Shown here one piece after another: positions 20,228 to 63,396 of a DNA stretch of 64,000 nucleotides; position 1 is the stretch's first letter, and each line of letters starts with the position of its first letter. The translations under genes were made by a program, and so were the position numbers. The notes beneath the pieces were generated by a model. The model was not told the origin of the DNA, did no database searches, and saw nothing but the letters and a program-made list of their open reading frames with translations. This DNA comes from Flavobacteriales bacterium (lineage in GTDB: Bacteria; Bacteroidota; Bacteroidia; Flavobacteriales_D; Sanyastnellaceae), in assembly GCA_018402085.1 (NCBI GenBank), contig JAGYJM010000002.1:558001-622000 (forward strand), read 5' to 3'.

Positions 20228-20256
20228 TTTGTCTATTGACGATCAAGATTTTTTCT

Positions 20257-33079: not shown

Positions 33080-35224
33080 GTGAATACCTTCTGCAGACAT
33101 ATTGCGTCCCTCTTTACCCTGATCGTCTTTGCTTTCTGCGCAAAAGCGCAGGATGCTACGGTGGAGCCCATGAACCTGAGTTCCGGTTTCAATGCTTTTG
33201 CTCCGACGATCCTCAACGGCAGTCTGGTGTATTGCTCCGATGCACGTTTGCAGGGATTGCGCAAGGACGAAGACCTCCAGGGAGCCTCGCAGGTTCATTG
33301 GTATTTCGCAAGTGAAGGTGATAGACGTACGTTATCTGCTTCTTTCGCGAACGAATTTCACCATTTGGGTCCGGGGGTGCAGAACCCCGCAACAGGTAGG
33401 TGGATATTCACAGCAGCGCGTAAATCTGCAGCCAAAAGAGACACCTCAACCCTCAGCCTGTACACCGCAATGGCAGATGCCAATGGCGTACTCATGGATA
33501 TCCAACCACTTGTATTCAGTGACGCCGTTTGGTTGAATGACGCGAATGTTGCACATCCTGCGGTATCACCAGATGGTGAGTGGCTCTGTTTTTCGTCGAA
33601 TTACAGGGCTGCCGGTTCGGCTGATCTCTTTATCAGCAAAAAAGAAGTCGATCACTGGGGAACACCAAAGCGAATGAGCGCAAAAGTGAACTCAGAGAGT
33701 GGGGAGTACTTTCCGACCTTCGCGCCGAACGGATGGTTGTATTTTGCCTCTGACCGCAAGGGCGGCAAAGGAGGATATGATCTGTACTTCAGTTACCTGC
33801 TGGGTGGTGAATGGTCATCGGCTCAACGTCTTGAGAACGATCTGAACTCGCCTTCTGATGATTACGGCATGGCCTTTCTGAGCGATGGCATGTCAGGCTA
33901 TTTCTCTTCTGACCGAGAGGGTGGAATGGGAGACATCTTTGCCTTTGAACTGGCCTATCCTGATTTTGACCGCTGCAAGCCCGCGCTGCCTGAACCGGTG
34001 TGTTACCTGATCGAAGAAACAGCCATTCAGCATTCAGATACCCTTCCCGTGTATTATGAGTGGGATTTCGGAGATGGGGCTACTGCACGCGGATTGTCTA
34101 ATGAGCATTGTTTCCCGGGTATTGGAGAGTATGATGTGGCATTGAATATTTACGATACGCTCACAGGCGCCCACTTTGCGAGGGTTTCGGAACTTCAGAT
34201 TTCTATTCTGCCGGCCGGCGTTCCCTTTATTCAGGCGCCTGATACCGTCAGGATCAATGAGGCCGTTTATTTTGCCGCCGATACTGCAGAGTTGAATGGT
34301 TTTCTGACAGAAGGCTTCTATTGGAAAAGCGGTGACGGTAGAAAATTCAAAGGTGTTGAGGCCGCATGGGGTTATCCTGCGCCTGGTGTATACGAAGTGG
34401 CCCTGGCTGCCATGGCTCCGCCGGTTCGTGGGTTCAGAGACCACCGGTGCGGTGTGCAACAGATTGTTGTGATCGATCCTGATGAACCGGGTATCGCACT
34501 GGGCGAGCCGGAGGCCCAAAAAATACAATTACCGAGGGTATTGTCTGAAGTGGAAGAGCACGTTCGCATAGATGGTGATGACCGTGTGTATTTCATTGAA
34601 TTTCACCAGTCGCAATGGCAATTGGCATTGAGTGACCCTTATTTTAAAGACGTACCCTTCGAAATCGTTGAGCGATTCCAGAACCACGACAGTCTTTACC
34701 ACTACAGTGTTGGAGAGGCCCGGCGCATAACCGAGTTGTATTCAGTGCAGCGTGAAATGACGGCAGCCGGTTACCCCGAAGCCATTGTGATGGAAGAAGC
34801 GATTGAACAGTTTAAAGAAGATACCCGCAAGCGAGGCTCGTACTATACTGACGAAGAAAAGCTGCAGATGAACCGGTACATCGGACAGTTGTCTGACATT
34901 CGCTTCGATGTCAACAGCAAAGCAATCCGAAAAGAGTCAACCCGGAATCTGGAGAAGATTCTGCAAATCTTACAGATGGACGAAAGTTTAATGCTCCAGA
35001 TTTCAGCGCATACCGATGACAGGGGAACCGACGAATACAATCTTGAGCTGTCTGAAAACCGCGCCAATGCGGTGGTGCAGTACTTCGTTGAATCCGGAAT
35101 TGAAAGTGGTCGATTGCAGGCTCGTGGCTTCGGCAACCGCCTTCCTATTGCGGATAACCAATCAGAAAAAGGAAGGGCACGCAACCGGCGTGTTGAATTC
35201 AGGCTGATTTTCATTGAGAAATAG
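33080..35224 (+). CDS. OmpA-family protein with PD40-like repeats and a PKD-like domain
   Basis: The 714-residue product starts at GTG 33080, one base after the PorP stop. The signal peptide ends FAFCAKAQD. Residues 45-300 carry PD40/WD40-like beta-propeller repeats (HPAVSPDGEWLCFSSN, FPTFAPNGWLYFASDRKGGK, GMSGYFSSDREGGMGDI). A PKD-like domain is near 325-380 (YYEWDFGDGATARG). The C-terminal 120 residues are an OmpA peptidoglycan-binding domain (SAHTDDRGTDEYNLELSENR, LQARGFGNRLPI). The architecture resembles PorE and other T9SS-linked OmpA proteins. Inference: it anchors the adhesin-PorP assembly to the cell wall. A GATG mini-hairpin forms part of the signal-peptide coding region. Confidence 0.92.
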   Translation: MNTFCRHIASLFTLIVFAFCAKAQDATVEPMNLSSGFNAFAPTILNGSLVYCSDARLQGLRKDEDLQGASQVHWYFASEGDRRTLSASFANEFHHLGPGVQNPATGRWIFTAARKSAAKRDTSTLSLYTAMADANGVLMDIQPLVFSDAVWLNDANVAHPAVSPDGEWLCFSSNYRAAGSADLFISKKEVDHWGTPKRMSAKVNSESGEYFPTFAPNGWLYFASDRKGGKGGYDLYFSYLLGGEWSSAQRLENDLNSPSDDYGMAFLSDGMSGYFSSDREGGMGDIFAFELAYPDFDRCKPALPEPVCYLIEETAIQHSDTLPVYYEWDFGDGATARGLSNEHCFPGIGEYDVALNIYDTLTGAHFARVSELQISILPAGVPFIQAPDTVRINEAVYFAADTAELNGFLTEGFYWKSGDGRKFKGVEAAWGYPAPGVYEVALAAMAPPVRGFRDHRCGVQQIVVIDPDEPGIALGEPEAQKIQLPRVLSEVEEHVRIDGDDRVYFIEFHQSQWQLALSDPYFKDVPFEIVERFQNHDSLYHYSVGEARRITELYSVQREMTAAGYPEAIVMEEAIEQFKEDTRKRGSYYTDEEKLQMNRYIGQLSDIRFDVNSKAIRKESTRNLEKILQILQMDESLMLQISAHTDDRGTDEYNLELSENRANAVVQYFVESGIESGRLQARGFGNRLPIADNQSEKGRARNRRVEFRLIFIEK
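33136..33156 (+). repeat. GATG mini-hairpin, copy 6 (in signal peptide, sense)
   Basis: GCTTT, stem CTGCGC, loop AAAA, stem GCGCAG, GATGCT. It encodes FCAKAQDA. About 27 bases are identical to the signal-peptide region of the unrelated redoxin gene at 55310. Confidence 0.75.
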
Positions 35225-35275
35225 TGTAACATCACACAGAATCAGGCGTATAGTCAATTAGATAACCAGCGACTG

Positions 35276-36244
35276 ATGCAGACTTACTTCACCCTACTAC
35301 TCTTGCTTGGAGCGGTTGCCGCCTCTTTTGGGCAGCCGGTGCCTGCCGAAGAAGAAAATATTCCTTACCTCGTGACTTTCGGCAAGGATGCCGACACCAG
35401 TTGGGGAGATGACGATTTTTGTCAAGTCTTTTTCTTTTCAATTCCGGCAGATCATCGAACCCCCTTTTTCATCCGAGTATTCGACCCCGACTGCGGTGGT
35501 GAGGCTGATGAGCAAAAAGGGGCCTTCAACACGATGACACGCTTTTCGGTTTATGGTGGCGAGGGCTGCATCTCTGAAGATGATGCGCGCTCAGTAGATC
35601 CTGTAGGAAACTTCAATAGCGGAAACCTGCTCGCAAGTAAAACCTTTGGAAGCCAGCAGAAATACGACGGCCAATGGTACACTTTTGGTCCGTTCAACCC
35701 CCTTGAAGGTGAGCTTTCTCCGAAATACGGGGGATATATTTTTAAAATGATCACCGAAGGCGTGCGTGGTGATGACGGTAACCTCTACCGCTTCTACATG
35801 TCAACCGCACAAGATGAAAATATACCCGTTGAAGGTGGCAACGCGTTTACGTTCGAATATACCTTTCGTCTGCACAGCGATCCGTGGCAAACTTCACATG
35901 TTTACCCTTACATCGACAATGAGGTGATTTACCTGGCGCAATCCAATTTCGATTGGGACAACGATGGATTTATTCGCGTTTACAGTGTGGTGTCATTTGC
36001 GGAGGAACTGACAACAAGCCAGGATAATAACTGGTCTTCAAGTAAGTATACGGTTAAAGATCAGGAGCGCGGTAAGTCGCTTGATATTCAATTCACGAAA
36101 GATGAAAACAAGAATGTCAACAACAACAACGTGGTCTTTTATGTGACGAACCAATACGGCGACCTGCTGCCGTTCTATACGGTTCCGATTGGTGGTATAC
36201 CAAGATATCAGGGGAAAGCCGTAGCCCGCCCGATACGTAAGTAA
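35276..36244 (+). CDS. Secreted protein of unknown function in the adhesin/T9SS locus
   Basis: The 322-residue protein has a clear signal peptide (cleavage near FGQ, residue 20). The mature part opens IPYLVTFGKDADTSWGDDDF and continues with acidic beta-rich sequence. FFFSIPADHRTPFFIRVFDP and TFEYTFRLHSDPWQ look like beta-sandwich strands. An FDWDNDGFIRVYSV segment is reminiscent of a Ca2+-binding loop. I do not recognise a family, and it has no T9SS tail or lipobox. It sits 51 bases after the OmpA gene and overlaps the downstream sensor by one base (TAATG), which implies a role tied to that sensor or to the surface structure. Confidence 0.7.
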   Translation: MQTYFTLLLLLGAVAASFGQPVPAEEENIPYLVTFGKDADTSWGDDDFCQVFFFSIPADHRTPFFIRVFDPDCGGEADEQKGAFNTMTRFSVYGGEGCISEDDARSVDPVGNFNSGNLLASKTFGSQQKYDGQWYTFGPFNPLEGELSPKYGGYIFKMITEGVRGDDGNLYRFYMSTAQDENIPVEGGNAFTFEYTFRLHSDPWQTSHVYPYIDNEVIYLAQSNFDWDNDGFIRVYSVVSFAEELTTSQDNNWSSSKYTVKDQERGKSLDIQFTKDENKNVNNNNVVFYVTNQYGDLLPFYTVPIGGIPRYQGKAVARPIRK

Positions 36245-39200
36245 TGGTATTCAATACATTGTATTTGAGAAGCCTGATCGGATCCCTGCTCATTGTGGCA
36301 TCACTTATAGCGGAGGCCCAATCTTTCAGGATCAGCCGACTTGATGAATCAGATGGTCTTTTTGAGCGCTTCATTTACTCTACAGACCAGGATCATCAAG
36401 GGTATATCATTCTCGGAACATCTAACGGAATGTACCGCTACGACGGGTTTGTCTTTGAGCACTTTGGCGTCAAAGACGGGCTTTCCCATCCATTTATTAC
36501 AACCAGCGCCGCAAGTGAAGATGATCTCTATTTCGGTCATGGAGATGGCTCAGTTTCAGTTTACCGAAATGCTCGTGTTCAAACCCTTTACCGTGACTCC
36601 CTTTTCAGCCAACGCGTGATCTCAATGTCTGCAACCACTGAAGGGCTTTGGTCGCTGCAGCAGGGCAATAAGTTGCTCTTATGGAAAGACAATGAACTGC
36701 AGTTGCATCAATTGCAGATGGAAGGAGCTATGGCGCGTAGCATCCATTGCACGGCGGAAGGTAAGGTGATCGTAGCCTGTGATATGGGCGTCTATCTCTA
36801 CGATGCAGATAAGAACAATGCAAAGCTTCTTGATAGCACTGCCGGATTAAGTGTCACGGCCTTCTGCCACGCTGAAGGCAGTGATCGCGAATTCTTTATG
36901 GCCGCAGAAGACCTCGGAATTGTAAAGCTGAACCTTGAAAAGGAGACCATTCGTTTTTTAAACGGTCCCGGACAACCGGATTCCTGGCTCATTAACGACA
37001 TGCGCAGCTTGCCAGGAAATAAACTGTGCCTGGCGACAAACAGCCATGGAATGCTGATGCTTGAAGGGTTGAGGGGAGAGCGCTGGCAACAGGTTACGAC
37101 GCCTGCCGGATTGAACAGAGATGTATCCAGCATCCGCACGATCCAGATAGATCGCGAGCAAAATCTCTGGCTTGGAACCAATGGCGAAGGCCTGATTATG
37201 CTGTCGAGCCAGGCCTTTACCATCCATCGCTTTCGCGATGAAGAAGACTGCAAAGTGACGGCACTTAATAGAATTCACGACCGGCTATGGATCGGAACGA
37301 GCTGCGGCTTACTCAAAGCAGCCGGTAATCTTGATACCCTCGCACATTGGGACTGGGGTGAAGGTATTCCGACGTCAAAAATCACAGATATTGAGCGGGA
37401 TGAGCAGGGCAGAATATGGCTCAGTACTGCGCGAAAAGGTTTGTATTTCCTTGAGCCCGAGGCTAAAAACTTTATAAAATTTGAGTTGCCGGGCGATTTG
37501 TTAAATGAACGAATCAATGATCTGCTCTACAGCGAAGGGCTGCTCTATGTGGCTACTGACTATGGTCTTTATCAGGTGCGGGAAAAACAGGTGTTGTCGC
37601 ACCTTACCATGCTGTCAGGACTTCCGCATAATGTGGTCAATACCCTTTTTAAAGACTCGTTTGACAGGGTGTGGATTGGAACGTACAACAGCGGGCTCAC
37701 CTATATTGAAGAAGGGGTGATCCTGAACACGCGGTTGCCCATGGATAAACTTCTGGATACCTATGCCTTCACCCAAGACAAAAGCGGATCTGTTTGGGCA
37801 GGTACCGACGGCGCCGGAGTTGTTTGTGTGTCTGAGCGGGATACTGCGATATACAACCGAATGAGCGGATTGTATTCAGACTATTGCTATGGCATTCAGC
37901 AAGATCGCGCAGGCCGTATTTGGATTGCTCACCGGAACGGATTGAGCCAGATTGATCCTGTGACCGGCGATGTTGAAGTGTATGACGAGTCTGAGCTCAC
38001 CCAAAGTACCCTTTCTCCAAATGCTTTTGTGCAAGGCCCCTTTGGGAACCTCATGGTTGGTATCGATAAGGGCTTACTTCTGTACAATGCTGACCTCGCT
38101 AAGCCAATGGAGGTGGAGCCAAGCGTGAACCTCAAGCACGTGGTCATATCTGACAGCCTCTTTGCTACTGACAAAACTATAGACCTGCCGTACGGGATGT
38201 ACCGGATTGAGTTCGGGTTTGTGGGGCTCAGTTTCAGAAACCCTGAGCAGGTGACTTATCGCTATTTTCTCGAAGGCTATGATCTGGAGTGGTCTGATCG
38301 GGTGAGTGATAACACCGTGAGGTATTCGAGACTTGATCCGGGGAGTTACACTTTTAAGGTGAAAGCCTATAACAAGCAGGGTGTAGGCGGATCAGAAGAA
38401 GCGGAAGTTCGAATCAATATCCTCAGGCCATATTGGGAACAGTGGTGGTTTTATGCTGTGATCATCCTCGTAATCTTTCTTGTAGTGCGCTTCATTATTC
38501 GACGAAGAGAGTACGTGATGCGCATGAACCAGGAGCGACTGCAGCAAGAACTCGACCTTCGTACCCGGGAGGTGGTGGCTCAAAAAGAGCTTATTGAGCG
38601 TCGGAATAAAGACATCACCGATAGCATCCGCTACGCGAAAAATATCCAGAAAGCGATGCTGCCCGCGCCTGATATTCTGAATAGACACTTTGCCGAAGCC
38701 TTTGTCTACTTTAAGCCCAGAGATATTGTAAGTGGCGACTTTTACTGGACCGAGAAGTTCGGATCTAAAATTCTGGTGGCTTGCGCAGATTGCACCGGAC
38801 ACGGAGTTCCGGGAGCTTTCATGTCACTCATAGGAACGGTACTCTTGAAAGATACCAGCCGAAACCGACAGGTTGAATCGCCGAGTGAGTTGTTGTACGC
38901 ACTCGAGCATGAGCTGAATGCCATGTTGCATCAGGGTGACGGCCCGTTTTCTGTGCAAGATGGAATGGATATCTCTGTTGTGGAGTATGACTTCGAAACA
39001 AGCGTCTTACGATGCAGCAGCGCGAGGCGACCGGTGGTTGTATATCAATCGGGACGGCGCATCGAAATCAAGGGTGACCGCAACAGCATTGGAGGGCAGA
39101 TGCTCGGTGAGTCTAAGCAGTTTACACTGAACGAGATACAGCTGAGACCGGGAGATAGTTTCTATCAGTTCAGTGATGGTATATCCGATCAGTTTGGTGG

Positions 39201-39366
39201 CAATGATGGCAAGAAACTGAAAAAGAAGGGTTTGCTAAGTATACTCGATCAAGCAAAAACCTTGCCGATGAATGAGCAGTACACCCATATTCGCCGTTCA
39301 CTGAAAGAGTGGAAAGGCGATGAACCTCAGGTAGATGATATTATTTTGTTAGGCATTCGAGTTTAA
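36244..39366 (+). CDS. Two-component-type propeller sensor fused to SpoIIE/PP2C phosphatase
   Basis: A 1040-residue membrane sensor. The signal peptide is at 1-26. A periplasmic double seven-bladed propeller follows, with reg_prop blades (WLGTNGEGLI near 310, RIWLSTARKGLY 389, RVWIGTYNSGL 475, VWAGTDGAGV 517, RIWIAHRNGL 557). A Y_Y_Y domain is at about 647-720 (YRYFLEGYDLEWSD), one transmembrane helix at 733-755, a short coiled coil, and then a SpoIIE-type PP2C serine phosphatase from about 800 (PRDIVSGDFYWTEK, ADCTGHGVPGAFMS, GDSFYQFSDGISDQFGG). It would dephosphorylate a cytosolic anti-sigma-antagonist-like partner in response to an outside ligand. No such partner is in the window. The gene end overlaps the converging acyltransferase gene by four bases. 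Confidence 0.93.
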   Translation: MVFNTLYLRSLIGSLLIVASLIAEAQSFRISRLDESDGLFERFIYSTDQDHQGYIILGTSNGMYRYDGFVFEHFGVKDGLSHPFITTSAASEDDLYFGHGDGSVSVYRNARVQTLYRDSLFSQRVISMSATTEGLWSLQQGNKLLLWKDNELQLHQLQMEGAMARSIHCTAEGKVIVACDMGVYLYDADKNNAKLLDSTAGLSVTAFCHAEGSDREFFMAAEDLGIVKLNLEKETIRFLNGPGQPDSWLINDMRSLPGNKLCLATNSHGMLMLEGLRGERWQQVTTPAGLNRDVSSIRTIQIDREQNLWLGTNGEGLIMLSSQAFTIHRFRDEEDCKVTALNRIHDRLWIGTSCGLLKAAGNLDTLAHWDWGEGIPTSKITDIERDEQGRIWLSTARKGLYFLEPEAKNFIKFELPGDLLNERINDLLYSEGLLYVATDYGLYQVREKQVLSHLTMLSGLPHNVVNTLFKDSFDRVWIGTYNSGLTYIEEGVILNTRLPMDKLLDTYAFTQDKSGSVWAGTDGAGVVCVSERDTAIYNRMSGLYSDYCYGIQQDRAGRIWIAHRNGLSQIDPVTGDVEVYDESELTQSTLSPNAFVQGPFGNLMVGIDKGLLLYNADLAKPMEVEPSVNLKHVVISDSLFATDKTIDLPYGMYRIEFGFVGLSFRNPEQVTYRYFLEGYDLEWSDRVSDNTVRYSRLDPGSYTFKVKAYNKQGVGGSEEAEVRINILRPYWEQWWFYAVIILVIFLVVRFIIRRREYVMRMNQERLQQELDLRTREVVAQKELIERRNKDITDSIRYAKNIQKAMLPAPDILNRHFAEAFVYFKPRDIVSGDFYWTEKFGSKILVACADCTGHGVPGAFMSLIGTVLLKDTSRNRQVESPSELLYALEHELNAMLHQGDGPFSVQDGMDISVVEYDFETSVLRCSSARRPVVVYQSGRRIEIKGDRNSIGGQMLGESKQFTLNEIQLRPGDSFYQFSDGISDQFGGNDGKKLKKKGLLSILDQAKTLPMNEQYTHIRRSLKEWKGDEPQVDDIILLGIRV

Positions 39367-41117: not shown

Positions 41118-41200
41118 AGGTTCTCGGAATGATTATTCTAAGTTAACTAGATCGCGCTTTGGTTAAACATGCGGCAGGTGAATTTTGGGTTAAGGCTTTT

Positions 41201-41221
41201 CCGCGCAAAAGCGCGGGATGC
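41201..41221 (+). repeat. GATG mini-hairpin, copy 7 (intergenic)
   Basis: GGCTTTT, stem CCGCGC, loop AAAA, stem GCGCGG, GATGCT. It sits in the 276-base gap between two minus-strand genes. Confidence 0.8.
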
Positions 41222-41343
41222 TGTGAGGAGTGCAGAATCGAAAGAGGTAGATGAACACGACTTGTGGATGCCAGAAGGCATGGAGCATTTTCTGTGACTA
41301 ATCTCGGTGAAGATATAGAGCAGCACCGAGTACAGCAAGAAAC

Positions 41344-41371
41344 AAAAAGCCCCGCCAAAGCGGGGCTTTTT
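41344..41371 (-). terminator. Terminator of the TonB-dependent receptor gene (bidirectional shape)
   Basis: A perfect stem AAAAAGCCCCGC / GCGGGGCTTTTT with a 4-base loop, giving T5 on either strand. It lies 22 bases past the receptor stop. Confidence 0.9.
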
Positions 41372-41392
41372 GCATCCGGCGTTTTTACGCCG
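41372..41392 (-). repeat. GATG mini-hairpin, copy 8 (intergenic, next to terminator)
   Basis: Minus strand: stem CGGCGT, loop AAAA, stem ACGCCG, GATGC. It is packed between the receptor stop codon and the terminator stem, two bases from the stop. Confidence 0.8.
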
Positions 41393-41393
41393 C

Positions 41394-44549: not shown

Positions 44550-44620
44550 AGTACTGAATGATCGCAATGATGACCGCAAAGGTCGATTTGCGGTGTTACG
44601 GAATTGTTAAGGGGGCGTAA

Positions 44621-44662
44621 TCAAAAAAAAGAAACAGGGTACCCGAGAGGATACCCTGTTTC
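44621..44662 (-). terminator. Terminator between the triplicated T9SS cargo and the TonB receptor
   Basis: A perfect 11-bp stem GAAACAGGGTA / TACCCTGTTTC with a 10-base loop, followed on the minus strand by eight T residues. It isolates the cargo transcript from the receptor gene. Confidence 0.92.
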
Positions 44663-44683
44663 ATGGAAGTCAATAAGATAGGA

Positions 44684-47600
44684 TTAGCGTACGATCACGC
44701 GAGCGGTCTTCACTGAAGTACCGTTCTGAAGTTGTACGAGGTAGATTCCTTTGTCAAATCCTGAGAGGTCAACGTTCACCTGGCTGCCTGCAGGCAGGTT
44801 GTTGAGCGGAGTGTTCGCTACGATGCGACCAGTGAGGTCAACAACGTCGAGGTTTGCGATGCCTGTCGCCTGACCGAGTTCAACAGTGAAGATACCGTTG
44901 TTCGGGTTCGGGTAAACAGTGAGGGCATCACCTGAGATAGCGCGATCATCTTCAACACCGGTGAAGCATCCAATGAACATACGCTCATCAAGGAATGACC
45001 ATCCGTGCAGCCAAGTGCAGTTTTCTGATGGGTCAAATGCGCCTTTGTAAGATGCAGCCGTGTACCATGGGTCAGAAGGAGGCGTTGCAGAAACATCAGA
45101 TGCGAGTGGCTTCGGATTGAGCTGCTCAGAACCTTCAGTAACCTCGTAGTTGAGGATTGGGTCTTCAACGGCGTTGCCGTTTGCTTCAAAGCTTGCTACC
45201 CATGTGTCAGTCGAAGAAGCCAGAGCAGCGAGTGAATCAGCTTCAGACTCCCAGCCTTCGCCCATCGAGATCGTGAAGATATCCGCCGCTTCTGCGGCGC
45301 CTTCTTCAGTAACATTCCAGAAGCAGTTACCACCGAGTTCGAGGTCACCTGCCTCGAAACGAGCGAAGCTGTCTTCACCGTCAGCGAGGTTTTCAATGTC
45401 TACACCACGACCCCAGTTGTAGAAGATCGAGTTCATGTACTTACCACCCGCGTTGTCACGGAAGGTCAGGGCACGACGACCGGCGTCGATTCCACGGCCT
45501 ATGTAAGTAGCATTGTAGATTTCAGGAGTAGTGAACGGCGTACCATCTTCAGGATCGGTACCACCATCGTGCTCACCACCGCGATCACCTGTTCCGTCGC
45601 CACTGTCATCCTGAACAGTGAACCAGAACTGGCCTTTACCGCGCCATCCTTCGTCGTAGTCGAATGAGTCATCGCCACAGAATGCAACACAGGCATATTT
45701 TACGTCAACAGTACCACCGAAGAACTCAATACCGTCATCGAAGTTAGAAATGACCTCAACGTGCTCAACAGTTGTGCCATTACCAACACCACCTAGTGTA
45801 ATACCATTGATTTCATTTCCGGCACCAATGTCTGAACCACCGTGACGTACAGAAACGTAGCGGATTACACCAGAGTTGTCTTCGTCGTCATTGCCACCGT
45901 AGAGACCACGTGGCTCAGTTTCAGGGATACCCTCGATTTGTGTTTCGCCGGGGGTTGAGTTGAGGCTTGCATTACCAAGAACGATAAGACCACCCCACTC
46001 ACCATTTGTATCGTACGGTGTAGAACCGTCAAGTGGATCAGCTTCGAAGGTGAAGATGATCGGGTTTTCCTCGGTTCCTTCAGCGAAGATCTTACCGCCA
46101 CGTGCTACAACGAGCGCAGAAGCGTCAGCACCGGTTCCAGGGAGACCTTTGATCACGGTACCTGCTTCAATTGTAAGGCACTGACCTTCGTTCACGAATA
46201 CAAATCCATCAAGGAGGTAAGTGTTACATGCTTGCCATGTCGTGGTACCTGTACCGGCGCCGGTGTCAGTTACTGTGATGACCTGATCACAATCATCAGA
46301 CTCAGGCTCACCGATGAAACCGTAAGCATCGAGAAGGGTCCAGCCGAACAGCCAGTTGTCTTCATCTGGGTTGAATGCACCTTTGAAGGTTACTGCATCG
46401 AACCAGTCGTCAGTAGCAGGGGTGCCGCCGCCAAAGTTGGTCACAGGAACCGGATCAAGACCACCTGAACCTTCGAGGATTACGTAGTCAAGACCAAGGT
46501 CAGCTACGCTGTTACCGTTAGCATCGAAGCTGGCGACGAATGCAGCCGTAGAGGCTTCGAGTGCAGCAATTGAGTCAGCTTCTGATGCCCAGCCACTGCC
46601 CATAGAGATTTTGAAGATGTCTTCAGCAGTTGCCGGCTGGCCTGTACAGAGGTCACCGTCAGCGGTTACATCCTGGAATACGTTACCTGCAAGAGCGAGG
46701 TCACCGGCCAGGAAGCGCTCGTAGCTGTCTTCGCCGTCAGCGAGGTTCTCGATATCGATACCGCGACCCCAGTTGGCGAATACAGAGTTGTGGTACTCAC
46801 CACCGGCGTTGTCACGGAAAGTGACAGCGCGACGACCCGCATCGATACCACGGCCGATGTAAGTTGCGTTAAAGACTTTAGGAGTGGTGTAAGGCGTGCC
46901 ATCTTCAGGATCGGTACCACCGTCGTGCTCACCACCGCGGTCACCTTCAGCTCCCGGCTCGTCTTGAACAGTAAACCAGTACTGTCCGAAACCACGCCAT
47001 CCTTCGTCGTAGTCGAATGAATCGTCACCACAGAAGGCTACAGTAGCGTACTTCACGCGAACCGTTCCGCCGAAGAACTCAATACCGTCGTCAGCATTCG
47101 AGATCACCTCAATGTGCTCGATGGTCGTACCTGAACCAACACCGCCGAGTGAGAGACCGTTGATCTCGTTACCTGCACCGATGTCAGTACCACCGTGGCG
47201 GATAGAGATGTACTTCAGTACACCTGAGTTGTCTTCGTCATCGTTACCTCCGTAGAGACCGCGTGGCTCAGTTTCAGGAATACCTTCAATCTGGGTTTCA
47301 CCCGGAGTAGAGTTGAGTTGTGCGTTACCGAGAACGAGAAGACCACCCCACTCACCGCGTGTGTCGTAAGGAGTAGAACCATCGAGTGGATCCGCTTCAA
47401 AGGTGAAGATGATCGGAGCGTCAGCGGTACCTTCAGCGAAGATCTTACCGCCACGTGCTACGATGAGTGCAGAAGCGTCAGCACCTGTACCCGGAGCACC
47501 TTTGATTACAGTACCTGCTTCAATGGTGAGGCACTGGCCTTCGTTCACGAATACAAATCCGTCGAGGATGTACTCGTTACAAGCGAACCAGGTGGTAGTA

Positions 47601-49051: not shown

Positions 49052-49367
49052 TGAGATGTGAATTTTAGGGTTCTGATCACGGTGCAAAAGTTGCCCACAT
49101 TACTCAGGGTTTCATTAGGAGAATGTTACCAGTATATTAAAAACGCACTCTTGTGAACTGTGACCAGTCTTTCACAGTGATTAACGTGCAAATGGATGAA
49201 TGCCAGCATATTAAATATGAACTTCATTGTTGAAAACGTGATATCCCGAAAAACTGCACACAGCCCAGTGCAAATGACGACTCTGCTGTTGTAAATGTTG
49301 TTGAATGGCTTATTTTCCAACACATGTGACATAGTGTTAACGCTGACCTAACACTGAGTCAAGGTGA
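49052..49367. other. Divergent intergenic region with two inverted repeats
   Basis: The 316 bases between divergent genes hold no protein. Dyad 1: ACTGTGA / TCACAGT, 8-base spacer, 49157-49178. Dyad 2: AGTGTTA / TAACACT, 9-base spacer, 49333-49355, only 13 bases before the rightward ATG. The second could be an operator for the pseudo-phosphatase gene; this is unproven. An AACTTTTG near 49085-49092 is a poor -7 box for the leftward cargo gene. Confidence 0.4.
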
Positions 49368-50183
49368 ATGCAATTCATTTGCGCTTTAATGAATCAGGCA
49401 TTTCTCAAGAAAGTCTGCCGCAAGGCAGTCATCACCGCCGGCAAGTATGTTGCGGATAAGTACCGTCGAGAGATGTATAATTCGGCAGGAATACCCGAAT
49501 TGGCAGCTCAGATCGCCAGAACGAGCGGAGAGCTGATGATGGGGGTGGTAGAAACCTACCTTCCGTTGGTTGACCGCGAACAAACAGACCATGTTTCAAA
49601 GCTTGATATCGGAAGCGGTGAGCTGATCATGGTGCATCTTGACGGACAAGAGAGTTTCGTTTATGGGCAGCCTAACTTTTCAATTGGTATCGCATACCTT
49701 GAGCGGGGAGCACCAAAATTATCAGGTGTTTTCAATCCGTTCTACAAAGAGCTGTTCTTTGCAGAGACGGAGAAAGGTCTTCGCAGAAACAACCAACAAG
49801 CGCAAGTCAATGACGTGAGTGCGCTTGAAGATAGCTTTCTGGGCTTTTCTTACCGCGGTGACTACACCACACAGGGGCAACAACGGCTTAATTTGCTATT
49901 TCGCATCATGAGACAACCCGTGCGTACCATGATTCCGGGAAGCGATTTGTACGGATTGAGTTTACTGGCCAATGGCAATCTAACCGGTATTGTGATCGGG
50001 GCGCCTTTTTATCGCTCGCTGATTCCGGGATTGTTCATCGTGGAGCAGGCAGGAGGAGTCATTTCAGATCAATTCGGCAAGCCGGTTACTGAGAAGAGTG
50101 AATTCATTATTGCTTCGAACGGTGCCATTCATAAAGAACTGCTTCGGCACTTTGAAGAGCATCGAAACCTTACCGAAGGGTAG
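49368..50183 (+). CDS. Inositol monophosphatase-family protein lacking catalytic residues
   Basis: The 271-residue protein follows the IMPase fold from end to end: the N-terminal helix AVITAGKYVADKYR, then FVYGQPNFSIGIAYLERGAP, GVFNPFYKELFFAETEKG, and VEQAGGVISDQFGKP near the C-terminus. The metal-binding DPIDGT motif, however, reads MVHLDGQE (Asp92 kept, first Asp and Thr lost), the upstream Glu-Glu pair is absent, and the WDxAAG motif is APFYRSLIPG (212-221). It is therefore predicted to be a pseudoenzyme or to have a changed activity. The start is ATG 49368, or possibly ATG 49389. It stands alone between a divergent and a convergent neighbour. Confidence 0.75.
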   Translation: MQFICALMNQAFLKKVCRKAVITAGKYVADKYRREMYNSAGIPELAAQIARTSGELMMGVVETYLPLVDREQTDHVSKLDIGSGELIMVHLDGQESFVYGQPNFSIGIAYLERGAPKLSGVFNPFYKELFFAETEKGLRRNNQQAQVNDVSALEDSFLGFSYRGDYTTQGQQRLNLLFRIMRQPVRTMIPGSDLYGLSLLANGNLTGIVIGAPFYRSLIPGLFIVEQAGGVISDQFGKPVTEKSEFIIASNGAIHKELLRHFEEHRNLTEG

Positions 50184-50249
50184 GGGGTGATCCTTTCGCA
50201 GCAGAATGTTCCGGCCTCAACCGCCAGATTGCGAAGTTTGAATCAGTGC

Positions 50250-51047
50250 TTATGCAGGAACACGTCGAAGCAGGGCTGACCAGCGGTCAATGATTTCTTG
50301 CTCTGCAAACTCTTCTGCATCATAGGTGTAAAGGTTCCATTCTCCCTGCTCAAATTCAAGCGCGCTGAGGTTTTCAATCCAATCACCGGAGTTCATGTAC
50401 TCTATGCTTTCGCTGCCTACTTTCACGGTGCGCTGCTGTGGCTGATGGATATGACCGCACACGACGTAGTCAAACCCTTTTTCAATTCCCACTTCAGCGG
50501 CCGTTTCTTCGAAGTCGCTGATGTATTTCACCGCCTTCTTAACGCTGTTCTTGATGCGCTTTGAAAATGACATTCTCGGCTGACCAAATGCCTGAAGCAC
50601 TGAGTTCACCACATTATTGGTAGCAATCAGCATGTCATAACTCCACCCTCCGAGTTTCGCAAGCCACTTGGCATACGACATCGATGCATCAAAAATATCA
50701 CCGTGGAAGAACCAGTAGCGCTTGCCGTCAATGCGCAGCTCAAGCTGGTTGACGAGGTGCAGGTTACCCATTGAGAACTCAGCATAACGGCGCAAGGCTT
50801 CATCGTGGTTGCCGGTAATGTAGTAAACAGGCACACGCTCTGAAAAACGAATGATCTGCTTGACTACACGCATGTGCGTCTCCGGAAAGTAGCGCTTTTT
50901 AAAGTTCCACATATCGAAGATATCGCCATTCAGAATCACCATACCAGGCTCTACAGATGCAAGGTATCGATTCAGTTCGCGCGCTTTACAGCCAAAAGTG
51001 CCAAGATGAAGGTCTGACAAAACCAGAATGTCCACGTTCCGCTTCAT
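50250..51047 (-). CDS. LpxH-like calcineurin-family metallophosphoesterase
   Basis: The 265-residue protein shows the five phosphoesterase blocks: VLSDLHLG, NGDIFDMW, GNHD, FHGD and CGHIHQP. Layout and length match UDP-2,3-diacylglucosamine diphosphatases, which hydrolyse UDP-2,3-diacylglucosamine to lipid X in lipid A synthesis. A broader phosphoesterase role cannot be excluded. The frame extends to a TTG at 51074, but ATG 51047 directly precedes the first strand. It is a peripheral inner-membrane enzyme by family. The UbiA gene is upstream on the same strand, separated by 156 bases with a mini-hairpin. Confidence 0.8.
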   Translation of the reverse strand: MKRNVDILVLSDLHLGTFGCKARELNRYLASVEPGMVILNGDIFDMWNFKKRYFPETHMRVVKQIIRFSERVPVYYITGNHDEALRRYAEFSMGNLHLVNQLELRIDGKRYWFFHGDIFDASMSYAKWLAKLGGWSYDMLIATNNVVNSVLQAFGQPRMSFSKRIKNSVKKAVKYISDFEETAAEVGIEKGFDYVVCGHIHQPQQRTVKVGSESIEYMNSGDWIENLSALEFEQGEWNLYTYDAEEFAEQEIIDRWSALLRRVPA

Positions 51048-51127
51048 TGTCTGAAGGTTTATTTCAAAATACAACCTTCATCATGTCTTATACCTTATGG
51101 CGACTTTACTCGTTTTTTAAGCAATGA

Positions 51128-51148
51128 CCGCGCAAAAGCGCGGGATAT
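51128..51148 (+). repeat. GATG-type mini-hairpin, copy 10 (intergenic)
   Basis: Stem CCGCGC, loop AAAA, stem GCGCGG, GATATT. The 16-base hairpin core and following GAT are identical to copy 7, 9.9 kb away. Confidence 0.8.
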
Positions 51149-51203
51149 TAACAGCTTATGAACGCATTATTAACGCCTTGCGAACAGGTTGTGCACCAGC
51201 GTA

Positions 51204-52193
51204 CTAAAACCACAAAGGCATCAGAGCTCCCAAAAGGATTCCGCCTGCCATGGTCAATTTCGACCACGAGCTTGCTGCACGGTAATCAGAGCGCTTTTTT
51301 GCGCGGGCGGTCAGACGCCAACTGACCACAGCAGGCATGACGATCAAAATCGCACTCATCAATGCAATGACGGTAAAGGAGGATGGTTCACGAAGTTCCG
51401 TTTTTACAGCCAACAGCGTAATAACAACGGCCGCGATGAGAATAACAAAGAGGGATTTCACATAGCGGGTGGTCGCTTTCTCACCCCAAACAATCGGCAG
51501 GGTCTTGAAATCACCCGTACGATCGCCTTCGATGTCTTCAAGGTCTTTCTGCGCTTCGCGGATCATGGTGGTCCAGAACGCAAAGCCGGCATATCCGAAG
51601 AGCCATTTCCAGGCGTTGTAGCTGAAATCCGGTGCAATACCACCAAGTATGCTGAAACGATCGGCTAAACCCGGAACCTCAATAATGCCTGACCAAATGG
51701 GCACCACTGACACCAGCAGGGCAACAACCAGGTTGCCAATCCATGCCTGTTTCTTGAAAACCAGTGAATAGAACCACAGCGCAGCAGCCATAGTGACCGG
51801 GAACAACACCAGAAACGGATTGCTTGTTTCCCACCCGAGCCATACCGCAAGCAAGGTCGCCAGAATATTGAAGCTGTGATGCGCCGCCATTACAACCCTC
51901 CGCTTCACTGTTCTGCCCACAATCACACGATCAGGCTTGTTCACCCGATCTACTTTAAGGTCAAAATAATCGTTGATCATGTTACCGGCTGCAGCCAGCA
52001 GCACCATCACCAAGACCGAAATGACGAACGTCCACTCGTCAAGTGTAAAGCGGATGTCTAAACCCGGGCGGTCATTGCTAATGTGATGAAGCAGACCGTA
52101 GAGCACTCCCCACCGCATCGCGTACATCGTGAATACAATGATCAGCAGGTTCAGCGGACGCATCAAGCGGAAAAAATCCGGTATTGATTTCAT
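51204..52193 (-). CDS. UbiA-family prenyltransferase (geranylgeranylglycerol-phosphate geranylgeranyltransferase-like)
   Basis: A 329-residue inner-membrane protein with about eight or nine hydrophobic helices. NMINDYFDLKVDRVNKPDR gives the first NDxxDxxxD prenyl-diphosphate/Mg2+ site, and REAQKDLEDIEGDRTGDFKT gives the second Asp-rich motif. It transfers an isoprenoid chain to an acceptor; Bacteroidota homologues are commonly annotated as geranylgeranylglycerol-phosphate geranylgeranyltransferase, but the acceptor cannot be read here, and quinone or heme-type acceptors are alternatives. It lies 36 bases downstream of the glycosylasparaginase gene and is probably cotranscribed with it. Confidence 0.85.
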   Translation of the reverse strand: MKSIPDFFRLMRPLNLLIIVFTMYAMRWGVLYGLLHHISNDRPGLDIRFTLDEWTFVISVLVMVLLAAAGNMINDYFDLKVDRVNKPDRVIVGRTVKRRVVMAAHHSFNILATLLAVWLGWETSNPFLVLFPVTMAAALWFYSLVFKKQAWIGNLVVALLVSVVPIWSGIIEVPGLADRFSILGGIAPDFSYNAWKWLFGYAGFAFWTTMIREAQKDLEDIEGDRTGDFKTLPIVWGEKATTRYVKSLFVILIAAVVITLLAVKTELREPSSFTVIALMSAILIVMPAVVSWRLTARAKKRSDYRAASSWSKLTMAGGILLGALMPLWF

Positions 52194-52229
52194 AGCAATG
52201 GGCGATGTTCAAGGCACTCACCGGAAGGT

Positions 52230-53210
52230 TCACCCGAAATGTGACCGTGCTTCAGCCATTCTGTTCTTACCATCGCGATGCAATGCGTAGGTAAATCCGG
52301 GGTGGATCGCATAGGCTCCGATATTGCCTTCTTTATCGACTGCAAGGTAGCCTACTTGCATGTCTTTTACATCTTTATTCTTGGCAACAATTCGCTCTAC
52401 AGCCTCTTTCACCGCTTGTTGCGGTTTCGCCCCCTGACGCATCAGTTCAACAATCAGAAATGAGCCCAGTGTGCGCATTACCAGCTCACCCATTCCGGTG
52501 GCCGTGGCTGCGCCTACTTCATTGTCAACGTAAAGTCCGGCGCCAATAATCGGGCTGTCTCCAACACGGCCGTGCATCTTGTACGCCAGTCCGCTCGTAG
52601 TGCAGGCTCCGGCCAGATTGGCCGACTGGTCAAGCGCGAGCAAACCAATAGTGTCATGGTTTTCAATGTTGATGATGGGCTCGTACTCTGCATTTTCGAG
52701 CCACGCTTCCCATGCTTTTTTTGAGTCAGGTGTGAGCAAGTCTGTAGCCTCAAAGCCGTTGGCTAATGCAAAACGCTTTGCTCCTTCACCCGCGAGCATG
52801 ACATGCGGCGTGTCATCCATAATTTTTCGCGCTACCGATACCGGATGCAGAATATCCTGCAAAAAGCACACCGCCCCGGCATTTCCTTCTGAATTCATGA
52901 TGCAGGCGTCGAGGGTGACGTTTCCGTCGCGATCCGGTAATCCGCCGATCCCTACACTTCGGCCCTCGGGGTCAGCCTCAGTGACACGTACTCCTTGCTC
53001 GGCTGCATCTACGGCACTTCCGCCACGGCTGATAACGTCCCAGGCTGCTTCATTGGCAGCCATTCCGTGGTTCCAGGTTGAAAGCACGAGACCGTCGCGC
53101 AGAGGGGCGATGGTTTTGGGTACATATTCAGTTGCTTTTGCAAATGGTGCAAGCGCTGACGCCGCAAAAGCGGCGGATGCCTTTTTGAGAAATGAACGTC
53201 TGCTTTTCAT
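52230..53210 (-). CDS. Tat-exported N4-(beta-N-acetylglucosaminyl)-L-asparaginase (glycosylasparaginase)
   Basis: The 326-residue enzyme cleaves the GlcNAc-Asn link of N-glycans, releasing aspartate. It opens with a twin-arginine signal (SRRSFLKK, then an alanine-rich stretch). VISRGGSAVDAAEQGV and GRSVGIGGLPDRDGNVTLDA are typical, and HDTIGLLALD holds the autocleavage and nucleophile Thr. GRVGDSPIIGAGLYVDNEVG and ATGMGEL form the substrate pocket. The product is probably periplasmic and matures by self-cleavage into two chains. A mini-hairpin overlaps the alanine-rich signal sequence. Downstream comes the UbiA gene; upstream is an esterase gene, 30 bases away. Confidence 0.93.
   Translation of the reverse strand: MKSRRSFLKKASAAFAASALAPFAKATEYVPKTIAPLRDGLVLSTWNHGMAANEAAWDVISRGGSAVDAAEQGVRVTEADPEGRSVGIGGLPDRDGNVTLDACIMNSEGNAGAVCFLQDILHPVSVARKIMDDTPHVMLAGEGAKRFALANGFEATDLLTPDSKKAWEAWLENAEYEPIINIENHDTIGLLALDQSANLAGACTTSGLAYKMHGRVGDSPIIGAGLYVDNEVGAATATGMGELVMRTLGSFLIVELMRQGAKPQQAVKEAVERIVAKNKDVKDMQVGYLAVDKEGNIGAYAIHPGFTYALHRDGKNRMAEARSHFG
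53160..53180 (+). repeat. GATG mini-hairpin, copy 11 (in Tat signal sequence, antisense)
   Basis: Plus strand: stem CGCCGC, loop AAAA, stem GCGGCG, GATGCC. The coding strand reads ASAAFAA. Confidence 0.7.
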
Positions 53211-53240
53211 GACTCGAAAGCTAATGAAAAGGGAAGTTAA

Positions 53241-54242
53241 TCAGTCGCAATGTGACCAATTTCCGTGTCGACAATTGTTCTTGCCGACATAGCGAACCTC
53301 GTGCTCAGTGAAGGTTTGACGGTTCATGCACAAGCGTAGAAAGCGCAGAATGTCTGGGATATCGTTTTCGATCGGACTTACAGCACTGCCGTGTTTTCCT
53401 CCGCACCGAGTTACCAGCCGAACCGGAGCATCTACCTCACGGAGTCGCCGGTAAAGTGCGTATGAGCCATAGAGGGGGAGGGCGCCGGGTGTGTTTTCCG
53501 GACAGTAGTGGTGGATGTCATAGTCGTAGGGTACCAGCGGATCGCAACTGCCATGATAGAGCAGGGTTGGCAGCGCATTTTCAGGGGTGATCAACTCATC
53601 ATCTTCCAGCGCACCGGCAAAAGCCATGATGCCCCGAAATCGAAAATCAGCGGGCAATACGGCCCCGGTTTCCTGGTGCTGTTCGCTCGTCCAGTAAGCA
53701 GCGTGAAGCGCGGCCTCCGCGCCCGCACTGCTGCCCGCCAGAAAAATGGCGTCAGCATCAATTCGAAGTGTGTCAGCGTGATCAAGTATCCAGAGTGTAG
53801 CAGAACGGATGTCATTGGCCGCGGTGGCAAAAGCCTGAATTTTACGCGCTATCGGCTGGTCGCAATGAAAAGACTCGCCCTTCAGAAACAGCCGGTAATC
53901 CATATTGATGGCCACGTATCCGCTGCGGGCCAGCGAATCGCAAAAATGAGCAATGTTGTCTTCCTTCCGAGTGCCTGCGTAGAAACCACCGCCATGAACG
54001 AAGATGACCGCCCCACGTAGCCGCTCTTCTGACCTCACCTTACGATAGATGTCCAACTCGAGTTCCTCGCCTTTGGTGGCATAGGTGTGGGTGGTGACAT
54101 GAATTGAGTCAGCTGACACTTCGAAGGAATCCGATTGTGAAGAAGTCGCGCTTGTTTGACATGCTGCCAACAATGAGGCGCATACGGCAAGCAGCGCCGG
54201 AAGCAACCGGATCAGTGGAGTAATGCTGAAGAAAAGAAACAT
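53241..54242 (-). CDS. Alpha/beta-hydrolase lipoprotein (esterase, BD-FAE-like)
   Basis: The 333-residue product has a lipoprotein signal (LLAAC). The mature part is an esterase fold: ELDIYRKVRSEERLRGAVIF, HGGGFYAG as oxyanion hole, a GYVAINMDYRL strand, and GSSAGAEAALHAAY with the nucleophile Ser. The Asp is probably in YHGSCDPLVPYD and the His in CGGKHGSA. Substrates of this group range from acyl esters to feruloyl esters; nothing in context narrows this. It is the first gene of a probable operon with the glycosylasparaginase and UbiA genes and is divergent from the response regulator. Confidence 0.85.
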   Translation of the reverse strand: MFLFFSITPLIRLLPALLAVCASLLAACQTSATSSQSDSFEVSADSIHVTTHTYATKGEELELDIYRKVRSEERLRGAVIFVHGGGFYAGTRKEDNIAHFCDSLARSGYVAINMDYRLFLKGESFHCDQPIARKIQAFATAANDIRSATLWILDHADTLRIDADAIFLAGSSAGAEAALHAAYWTSEQHQETGAVLPADFRFRGIMAFAGALEDDELITPENALPTLLYHGSCDPLVPYDYDIHHYCPENTPGALPLYGSYALYRRLREVDAPVRLVTRCGGKHGSAVSPIENDIPDILRFLRLCMNRQTFTEHEVRYVGKNNCRHGNWSHCD

Positions 54243-54332
54243 ATCAGATTCAGATTGGTTGTTGCTAAGCTAAGCATCATGGAACGTTCATCGAATAAAC
54301 GTGATTTATGCAAATTATATATTCGGGAGTCC

Positions 54333-54340
54333 TAAATTTG
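54333..54340 (+). promoter_or_regulatory. Candidate -7 box TAAATTTG for the response-regulator gene
   Basis: It matches TAnnTTTG and leaves about a 19-base distance to the ATG. TTTA lies about 24 bases upstream of it, a weak -33. Confidence 0.45.
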
Positions 54341-54359
54341 TACGGCTTACTAAGATCAG

Positions 54360-54746
54360 ATGCTGAATCATGCACTTATCGTCGAAGACGACGAAGTCAC
54401 GCTGTTTCTCACTCAAACGGTAATTGAAAAGAGCCGTTTTGTGAAAATGACAGACGTGGCGACAGACGGACTGGAGGCCTACCGGTTTTTGTGCGAGCAC
54501 AAGACCGATGTGGTGTTCCTTGATATATCACTACCTGTAATGACGGGCCTTGAGTTGCTCGAGAAGTGCCGCACACAGCCGGGTATTAACGTGCCTTTTA
54601 TTGTGCTCAGTAGCACCGACCGCGAGGCAGAGCTTGCTGAGAAGGGAGAGTACCCACAGGTCATTATGCATCTCAGGAAACCGCTTTCGACTGCTGATAT
54701 GGAACAGGTCAAAAACGCAGTTCTAACGCATAAACGCGTCAGCTAA
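54360..54746 (+). CDS. Stand-alone response regulator (receiver domain only)
   Basis: The 128-residue protein is a CheY-like receiver with no output domain. IVEDDEVT holds the acidic pocket, VVFLDISLP the phospho-acceptor Asp, VLSST the conserved Ser/Thr and LRKPL the Lys. It would be phosphorylated by an unlinked histidine kinase and act by protein contact, for example on motility machinery or a phosphorelay. No kinase is nearby; the SpoIIE sensor at 36 kb lacks a kinase domain. Its end overlaps the converging redoxin gene by four bases. Confidence 0.9.
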   Translation: MLNHALIVEDDEVTLFLTQTVIEKSRFVKMTDVATDGLEAYRFLCEHKTDVVFLDISLPVMTGLELLEKCRTQPGINVPFIVLSSTDREAELAEKGEYPQVIMHLRKPLSTADMEQVKNAVLTHKRVS

Positions 54747-55375
54747 AGTTCTGAAAGAGCGGTTAAAATAGACTGAATCGAAGGGCGTTGTTTATAATCA
54801 TAATTGAAGTAGCGCCAGGCGATTCGCCCTGATTGACTGATGATAAAAACTGCAGGCACAGGCAATACGGCGTTCTCTTGCTCATTTCGCTCTGTAATCT
54901 CTGCACGCAAGAAACGCTTAATTTTCTTTTCATACTTCCCGGTCACATTGAACGCGACCTCATAGTCGCGCATCACAGCGCCACCGATATCGTGAAGTAC
55001 CCTGAATTCTGCACCGTTTTCACCCACCATTTCAATAATGTGCTCATTGGCCTCAGGACTCAGTGCTACAACTTCTGCACCGGCTTCGCGGATGTAAGAG
55101 AGGCTGTCTTCGAGTGCGCTCATGTATCGGTTACAGTGCGGACACCATTCTCCGCGAAAGAAAACGAGAACAACGGGGCCTTTGCTAAGTGACGTTTGCA
55201 AGCTGTAGTCATTGCCAAGAGCATCTTTCGTATCAAAAACCGGCGCATAACTGCCTACGGGGAGACCTTCGGGAACAGTTTTGGTCGTGTCGACACCGTA
55301 CTTCGCTAAATCCTGCGCTTTTGCGCAGAAAGCAAAAAGGGTAAACAGCGAGAGAAGCAAAGCTTTATTCATCAT
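54743..55375 (-). CDS. Exported AhpC/TSA-family peroxiredoxin-like protein
   Basis: The 210-residue product has a signal peptide ending FAFCAKAQD. The mature domain is a redoxin: VGSYAPVFDTKDALGN, then FFRGEWCPHCNRYMSAL with a CxxC, VVALSPEANEH, and LPVPAVFIISQSGRIAWRYF with the cis-Pro. The EWCPHC motif is seen in a redoxin group rather than classical two-Cys peroxiredoxins. It likely acts as a periplasmic thiol oxidoreductase or peroxidase. It overlaps the upstream nuclease-like gene by four bases (ATGA), so the two are coupled. Its signal-peptide DNA contains mini-hairpin copy 12. Confidence 0.85.
   Translation of the reverse strand: MMNKALLLSLFTLFAFCAKAQDLAKYGVDTTKTVPEGLPVGSYAPVFDTKDALGNDYSLQTSLSKGPVVLVFFRGEWCPHCNRYMSALEDSLSYIREAGAEVVALSPEANEHIIEMVGENGAEFRVLHDIGGAVMRDYEVAFNVTGKYEKKIKRFLRAEITERNEQENAVLPVPAVFIISQSGRIAWRYFNYDYKQRPSIQSILTALSEL
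55310..55328 (-). repeat. GATG-type mini-hairpin, copy 12 (in signal peptide, sense)
   Basis: Minus strand: GCTTT, stem CTGCGC, loop AAAA, stem GCGCAG, GATTTA. It is identical to copy 6 through the GAT and in the same frame (FCAKAQD). Confidence 0.75.
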
Positions 55376-63377: not shown

Positions 63378-63396
63378 CTGCCTTACGGCAGGATGG
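63378..63396 (+). repeat. GATG mini-hairpin variant, copy 16 (intergenic)
   Basis: GCTTT, stem CTGCC, loop TTAC, stem GGCAG, GATGGATG. It sits between the divergent ribB and def genes, just ahead of the def -7 box. Confidence 0.6.

Follow-up and report, generated by a model that had tools for sequence, protein, structure and literature searches.

Dispersed genome signals such as Chi, uptake sequences and KOPS (FtsK-orienting polar sequences) are sequence words. The known dispersed hairpins, the REPs (repetitive extragenic palindromes), are thought to be inserted mobile DNA, and a dense hairpin signal that arose in place, with a mostly free stem and a distance rule specific to the strand, would fit neither group. 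Some REP families are described as species-specific in the accessible part of PMC3733652. Here we describe a family of short hairpins dispersed through the genome of a Flavobacteriales bacterium (assembly GCA_018402085.1). It was noticed in a stretch of 64,000 nucleotides, called the window below (contig JAGYJM010000002.1, positions 558,001 to 622,000; bare coordinates refer to this stretch), where CTGCGCAAAAGCGCAGGAT occurs at 33136-33154 (+) and at 55310-55328 (-). The literature searched, outside which most subscription papers lie, holds no description of such an element.

These two copies lie in an OmpA/PD40 gene and a redoxin gene respectively. As the initial annotation reported, they share 27 identical bases (exactly tttgcttt, the 16-base hairpin and gat), and both genes read them in one and the same frame, as FAFCAKAQD. 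The annotation had also included a copy in a GDPD gene (16625-16643, minus strand, CAGCGC-AAAA-GCGCTG-GAT, sense). The frame is indeed shared (FSAKALDA), but this copy lies approximately 210 codons inside its open reading frame (ORF) and is therefore not a signal-peptide end. A search allowing up to three mismatches gave 5 matches in the window (0.03 expected) and 355 in the whole 3.78-Mb genome (188 forward and 167 reverse, against 0 + 0 for the reversed control pattern); genome-wide, copies occur on contig C1 too. The original observation is thus a small part of the phenomenon, two members of a genome-wide family, and its interpretation as a whole is partly supported. One recurring hairpin does code in unrelated proteins, but the proposal that it is mobile or copied is not supported, since the stems vary and co-vary from copy to copy and 12 of the 14 sites that could be aligned to congeners show no gap or a gap of one codon.

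The following counts come from the window together with 40 stretches of 20 kb, in all 864 kb of the source genome (G000) from contig C2. The motif is C-N5-[AAAA/GAAA/AGAA]-N5'-G-GATG, that is a 6-bp stem with a fixed closing C-G pair and a fixed loop and tail. There are 213 perfect GGAT-tailed copies, every one closed by C-G, which extrapolates to about 900-930 copies in the genome or approximately one per 4 kb. Between the near matches in the window, stem changes come as complementary pairs (CTGCGC..GCGCAG, CCGCGC..GCGCGG, CAGCGC..GCGCTG), and the stem therefore co-varies. All four pair types are found at stem positions 2, 3, 4 and 6 and three at position 5, although such counts are circular as to pairing because the rows were preselected as perfect hairpins; the unbiased counts are those of searches in which pairing was not demanded. 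Searched in this way, C-N5-[AAAA/GAAA/AGAA]-N5-GGATG gives 211 matches: all five inner pairs are formed in 191 of them, and four of the five in 6. Set against the 191 perfect copies, single deviations number 6 for a stem mismatch, 0 for the closing pair and 5 for other loops, while in the tail they number 0, 1, 6 and 21 for the first, second, third and fourth base. Stem length is mostly 6 bp: GGATG-tailed hairpins with a four-base loop have 6 bp in 194 cases, 4 bp in 7, 5 bp in 13 and 7 bp in 5, and a C at position -1, which would permit a seventh pair with the tail, is present in 8 of 212. Stems with one mismatch and a GGAT tail (n=8) include one G.T and two A.C, the latter equivalent to G.T on the other strand. 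The upstream flank is T-rich and the downstream flank shows a weak GCGAACACG-like trend. Folding with DNA parameters slightly prefers the written strand in G000 (212/212) and the other strand in G016, a relative from another genus (40/40). The family is thus constant in its stem length, in the C-G pair that closes the stem, in its loop and in the GGATG tail, while the stem sequence is mostly free apart from its pairing. Because the stems are free in sequence yet perfectly paired, the fold is what counts.

Genes were called as the longest ORF, and approximately 93% of the DNA falls in ORFs. The 213 copies comprise 113 sense, 60 antisense and 40 intergenic, so that 173 are inside ORFs; the intergenic share nevertheless exceeds the approximately 7% of non-ORF DNA. 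Intergenic copies occur in all four orientations relative to the neighbouring genes (11, 11, 9 and 8). The sense excess goes with a single codon phase, which holds 94 of the 113 sense copies and reads x-x-(K/E)-x-x-D, a peptide that is probably tolerable in many proteins. Signal-peptide ends like FCAKAQD, further examples of which lie in stretches L015, L036 and L039, are one case of this phase. The motif is easily accommodated in signal peptides, where the T-run comes from Phe/Leu codons and the remainder from AKAQD. The role first assigned to the element, that of forming the end of a signal peptide, is incidental because sense copies are spread along genes and are accompanied by the antisense and intergenic ones.

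Alignments to two congeners, with G001 or G002 as partner and one genome per species, were kept at 44% protein identity or more and E 1e-20 when they covered the site; more distant ones, some gapped near the site, were left uncounted. Fourteen elements in 13 genes could be compared. Nine are gapless within three codons (one of these falls in a repeated domain and may have been aligned to a paralogue), a gap of one codon is present in three, and two have larger, ambiguous gaps. Amino-acid changes accompany the hairpin at these sites. In the redoxin gene FAFCAKAQD stands opposite LTLSVHSQD and LTLGVHSQD in the two congeners, at equal length and without a gap, which does not bear out an insertion: in this comparison the signal-peptide end is a replacement. 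The GDPD site (SFSAKALDA) likewise faces SFSAEVLEA with no gap, and for the OmpA/PD40 gene no alignment across the site was obtained in the congener DNA fetched. Since gaps are absent or of one codon in 12 of the 14 alignments, the sites arose in place, and the hairpins apparently came about by alteration of existing sequence and not by insertion.

The arrangement of the copies is strand-specific. Near-identical neighbours were collapsed before counting, which removed 13 copies and left 200. These are balanced between strands (101 + and 99 -), and no replichore bias was found (102 leading and 98 lagging on a rough GC-skew split); the best of all possible splits reaches 107/200, below the shuffled mean of 116. 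However, consecutive copies alternate, with 108 on opposite strands and 51 on the same strand. The total number of close pairs is near random but their orientations are not: below 2 kb there are 13 same-strand pairs where random placement gives 44, against 40 convergent (22 expected) and 24 divergent (22 expected). When minor loops were added (215 copies) and orientations were shuffled at fixed positions, same-strand pairs accounted for 13 of 79 below 2 kb instead of 39.4 +/- 4.5, and 0 of 20,000 permutations were as low. At 2-4 kb the deficit has gone (46/92, 45.7 expected). G016 behaves similarly, with 2 of 21 same-strand pairs below 2 kb (10.3 expected; 0 of 20,000) and 10 of 19 at 2-4 kb (9.3 expected). 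In G000 the deficit is present both within genes (3 same-strand and 22 opposite close pairs) and between them (10 and 45, one overlapping pair included). This distance rule points to one single strand being involved at a time over approximately 2 kb. Two further splits were seen in G000: convergent pairs, with their GATG tails inward, outnumber divergent ones below 1 kb (25 vs 14), and the 13 same-strand pairs below 2 kb are 10 of leading type and 3 of lagging type on the rough skew split. Neither is convincing alone.

The two congeners lack the family: it was not found in the DNA sampled from G001 and G002. Among the matches listed for search model R1 in 100 relatives, at least 73 belong to G000, 11 weak ones to G016 and one each to 11 others including G002, with none in G001. 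G016 carries its own dialect, composed of a T-run, a 5-bp stem with closing C-G, a TNNC or TNNNC loop and GGATG. Without pairing being demanded, this consensus occurs 40 times in 202 kb, 38 times fully paired and 0 times with a single mismatch; the stretches were picked at R1 matches, which may inflate this density though not the orientations. With any loop of 4-5 bases and a GGAT tail (n=54), 24 copies are sense, 21 antisense and 9 intergenic. When the loop is left free, T..C is found in at least 29 of the 35 four-base loops and corresponds to GNNA on the other strand; as a DNA tetraloop, c(GNNA)g is particularly stable. G007, from a third genus, has 4-bp stems and T..C loops (10 of 11 paired), small numbers obtained after several loop classes had been tried. 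In samples of 6.6 to 280 kb from each of 22 other relatives, G001 and G002 included, no clear excess of GATG-tailed hairpins was seen, the highest rates being 4/598 and 3/154 GATG words. In 395 genomes of the phylum, a listing from which G016 is absent, R1 matched 18 times in G000 and once in each of two other genomes; model R2 matched 13 times in G000 and once in G007. Across 219 genomes of the order, the R2 matches numbered 33 for G016, 26 for G000 and 2 for G007, with a single one in each of four more genomes. The R2 matches imply that G000 also has some copies of the 5-bp kind, of which the window contains two. A scan of genome contigs with the pattern CNNCGCRAAAGCGNNGGATGC returned at least 83 stretches; the 80 listed have one match each in different records, as expected by chance.

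Of 23 homologous gene pairs from G000 and G016, one has a shared site, and in another gene the two elements lie seven alignment columns apart. The shared site, in a membrane-protein gene, reads TTTTTTCTTTTTTCGCGCAGAAATGCGCGGATG in G000 and TTTTTTCTTTTTTCGCGCGCTAACGCGCGGATG in G016 at the same codon positions, and by eye G001, G002, G003 and G007 are without a hairpin there. The presence of two dialects at one homologous site suggests that the reader changes and that the loop changes after it.

Taken together, these features lead us to favour, tentatively and at somewhat less than an even chance, a signal on single-stranded DNA that is read by its structure, most likely in an uptake- or recombination-like process, by a candidate reader protein. 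The molecule read would be DNA rather than RNA because both orientations occur in genes and wobble pairs are scarce. A putative protein would recognise the folded single strand through the hairpin and its GATG tag (on the other strand, CATC at the 5' foot). The signal would be chosen after strand separation, whether in transformation or in strand exchange. A copy would be required on each strand, and one copy might serve a tract of approximately 2 kb. Biased transfer or selection could keep the sites perfect, and they might spread by replacing homologous sequence. In a fuller and still more tentative form, which we regard as possible without expecting it, this would be a new kind of genome signal: a fold-defined DNA word, read per strand, tolerant of almost any stem, spread to approximately 900 sites through biased strand exchange, drifting in stem length and loop into dialects of sister genera, and with a single working copy on each strand in every 2 kb. 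If so, folded single strands would be a genome-wide mark used by bacteria, and the dialects of three genera, with their absence from congeners, would offer a comparative setting in which the reader protein could be sought.

Several observations weigh against this proposal. No reader protein was found, and Y1 and REP-transposase genes fail to track the hairpins. Among the 18 copies found in 130 kb of G007, the sole two pairs below 2 kb are both same-strand, with none opposite, and the strand rule is therefore not seen there. When tandem duplicates are kept in G000 the deficit below 1 kb disappears (38 same-strand pairs, 25.5 expected), while that at 1-2 kb remains (13 vs 24). In repeated genes, near-identical copies on the same strand persist at a distance of 133 bases, and close same-strand copies are therefore not lethal. 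The proposal also leaves unexplained the greater number of convergent than divergent close pairs (39 vs 27 below 2 kb, 215 copies). Known uptake sequences are fixed and non-palindromic and, according to the accessible part of PMC1939737, their orientation is without effect on uptake, so that they do not predict a hairpin with a strand rule. The spacing rule in G000 was a post hoc observation, independently repeated once, in G016, and counts other than those from searches of the whole genome are based on the stretches sampled and on longest-ORF gene calls.

The best surviving alternative, which we judge unlikely though deserving of attention, is that the hairpins are REP-like elements. A Y1/HUH transposase of RAYT type (REP-associated tyrosine transposase) would recognise the hairpin and foot tetranucleotide on single-stranded DNA, and paired same-strand copies would be excised, hence their avoidance within 2 kb. 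The other strand, with its CATC tag followed by a hairpin, does have the layout of a tagged REP as far as it is described in the accessible parts of PMC3733652 and PMC6006769. Same-strand avoidance would suit excision between paired sites, which needs both in one single-stranded stretch (PMC5371416, accessible part). G000 carries a Y1_Tnp gene above cut-off near C2:1309048, together with further matches to REP-associated tyrosine transposases, all below the family cut-off (C2:3455622, C2:1643187, C1:84971, C2:2496526, C2:2518950 and C2:2965269). However, REPs spread by insertion and lie mainly outside genes, whereas 12 of 14 sites here show gap 0 or one codon (the other 2 being ambiguous) and 40 of 213 copies in G000 and 9 of 54 in G016 are intergenic. 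No hairpin directly flanks either of the two transposase genes whose surroundings were inspected: the Y1 gene (L049) has its nearest elements at approximately 0.6 and 1.5 kb, which is unremarkable at one per 4 kb, and a REP-transposase-like gene in L242 has them at approximately 1.1 kb. At E 1e-5, none of G001, G002 and G016 has a match to the G000 Y1 gene, although G016 has a similar element density; conversely, G001 and G002 have Y1 or REP-transposase matches yet no hairpins, so that transposase presence does not track the hairpins. The tag is GATG/CATC and not GTAG or CGTC; GTAG-tailed controls gave 0 fully paired matches in the loop classes tried, CGTC not being among the controls. A scan of genome contigs for relatives of the G000 Y1 gene gave 27 pattern matches, none of them confirmed, and among five Y1 proteins the nearest to that of G016 are those of G008 and G001, neither of which genomes showed hairpins. 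The Y1 transposase is thus rejected as a shown partner and kept as part of this alternative. A REP-transposase-like gene of G007 (L237) includes, in frame, a long array of LSGDSLLGEPLSG repeats as well as a GTAGGGGC motif; this resembles the REP insertions, likewise in frame, of TnpA-REP subclass 2.4 (PMC6006769).

Less probable again is a Chi-like signal, at which an AddAB/RecBCD-type enzyme reading the unwound strand would switch from degradation to recombination. Its density (approximately one per 4 kb), in-gene and in-place character, lineage specificity and strand specificity would all suit. However, Chi has a replichore bias and the hairpins have none (102 vs 98), and same-strand avoidance is unexpected for a signal recognised with a probability well below one. 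A regulatory or processing hairpin in mRNA is very improbable: the sense excess of G000 (113 vs 60) would be in its favour, but sense and antisense copies are nearly equal in G016 (24 vs 21), intergenic copies adopt four neighbour orientations (11, 11, 9, 8), G.U pairs are hardly present and the window has 0 Rfam matches at gathering score. The mobile hairpin copied into signal-peptide ends, as originally envisaged from the 27 identical bases and consistent with the additional FCAKAQD ends, can practically be dismissed given gapless or near-gapless sites (12 of 14), stems that vary but pair, and a spread along genes.

Returning to the window, the two initial copies are both CTGCGC-AAAA-GCGCAG-GAT, sense and at signal-peptide ends (33136..33154, +; 55310..55328, -, gapless against congeners). 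The redoxin copy is 64 bases from a hairpin of the 5-bp kind on the opposite strand (CTGCC-TGTC-GGCAG-GATG, 55393..55409, +), antisense in the neighbouring ORF. The second hairpin of this kind, CTGCC-TTAC-GGCAG-GATG (63378..63394, +), is intergenic, as are CCGCGC-AAAA-GCGCGG-GAT at 51128..51146 (+) and CCGTGT-AAAA-ACACGG-GATGC at 7657..7675 (-). A convergent pair is formed by CCGCGC-AAAA-GCGCGG-GAT (41201..41219, +) and CGGCGT-AAAA-ACGCCG-GAT (41374..41392, -), the latter adjoining a long terminator-like palindrome (41343-41372). Further sense copies, all on the minus strand, are CAGCCA-GAAA-TGGCTG-GATG (10740..10758), CGCCGC-AGAA-GCGGCG-GAT (45281..45299) and CGGTGA-AAAA-TCACCG-GATG (61050..61068), which falls on a VKNH peptide common to both congeners. 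Antisense copies include CGGCAG-AAAA-CTGCCG-GATGC twice in the same ORF and in similar context (29170..29188 and 29896..29914, both -), CATCGC-GAAA-GCGATG-GATG (37222..37240, -), and CGCCGC-AAAA-GCGGCG-GATGC near the start of an asparaginase gene (53160..53178, +). CTGCCG-AAA-CGGCAG-GATG (23525..23542, -), with a 3-nt loop, is antisense in an RND gene. This gene is a 1455-aa ORF (20236-24603) corresponding to a CusA/CzcA-type RND pump with a C-terminal region that weakly matches the TolC family (37 bits, cut-off 225). Type IX secretion sorting domains were also found, as would suit a member of the Bacteroidota.

Some repeats carry a same-strand hairpin in each successive unit (L040:2899-5509, L027:15355-15859 and L044:14381-15389), spaced mostly by 133-484 bases; the units of L040 correspond to a CTDEAACNFVAEATDDD protein repeat. 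Another palindromic repeat, GGACGCC..GGCGTCC, has 78 sites in the 864 kb (seen in L022, L029 and L009), 65 of them within two stretches. Some of the sites in L009 are in tandem arrays of approximately 213 bases (e.g. L009:2295, 2508, 2722 and 2935). It was not found in the sampled DNA of G001, G002 and G016.

Among known systems, Chi sites resemble the hairpin family in density, in-gene position, lineage specificity and single-strand reading, but the family has a fold and lacks the replichore bias. Lineage dialects are also known from the DNA uptake sequences (DUS) of Neisseriaceae and the uptake signal sequences (USS) of Pasteurellaceae, and the use of both strands without replichore bias (101 +/99 -; 102/98) is likewise DUS-like. 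Such sequences are fixed, non-palindromic words whose orientation has no effect on uptake (PMC1939737), unlike the mostly free stem, fixed fold and same-strand avoidance seen here; no fixed word was found, stem positions 2, 3, 4 and 6 carrying all four pair types. HIP1 of cyanobacteria (PMC4390886) is also short and highly over-represented, but is a fixed palindrome, GCGATCGC, without variable stem, loop or tail. Integron attC sites are folded single strands read by structure more than by sequence (PMC5371416, accessible part). However, attC sites border gene cassettes and include both extrahelical bases and spacers, whereas the present hairpins are perfect, of 12-16 bases and spread genome-wide; no long site with extrahelical bases was found, and an integrase was not searched for. 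REPs, as far as described in the accessible part of PMC3733652, share the short hairpin, the alternative complementary stem bases, the unpaired foot tetranucleotide and the many copies. They differ in that 173 of 213 copies here lie in ORFs, were made in place, bear GATG/CATC and have no directly flanked transposase gene, with almost strict Watson-Crick pairing and one main stem length per genome. We assign the family to neither uptake sequences nor REPs because defining features of both were looked for and are lacking; in-place origin, few decayed copies, use of both strands and dialects make it resemble uptake sequences, and its anatomy of tag plus hairpin makes it resemble REPs.

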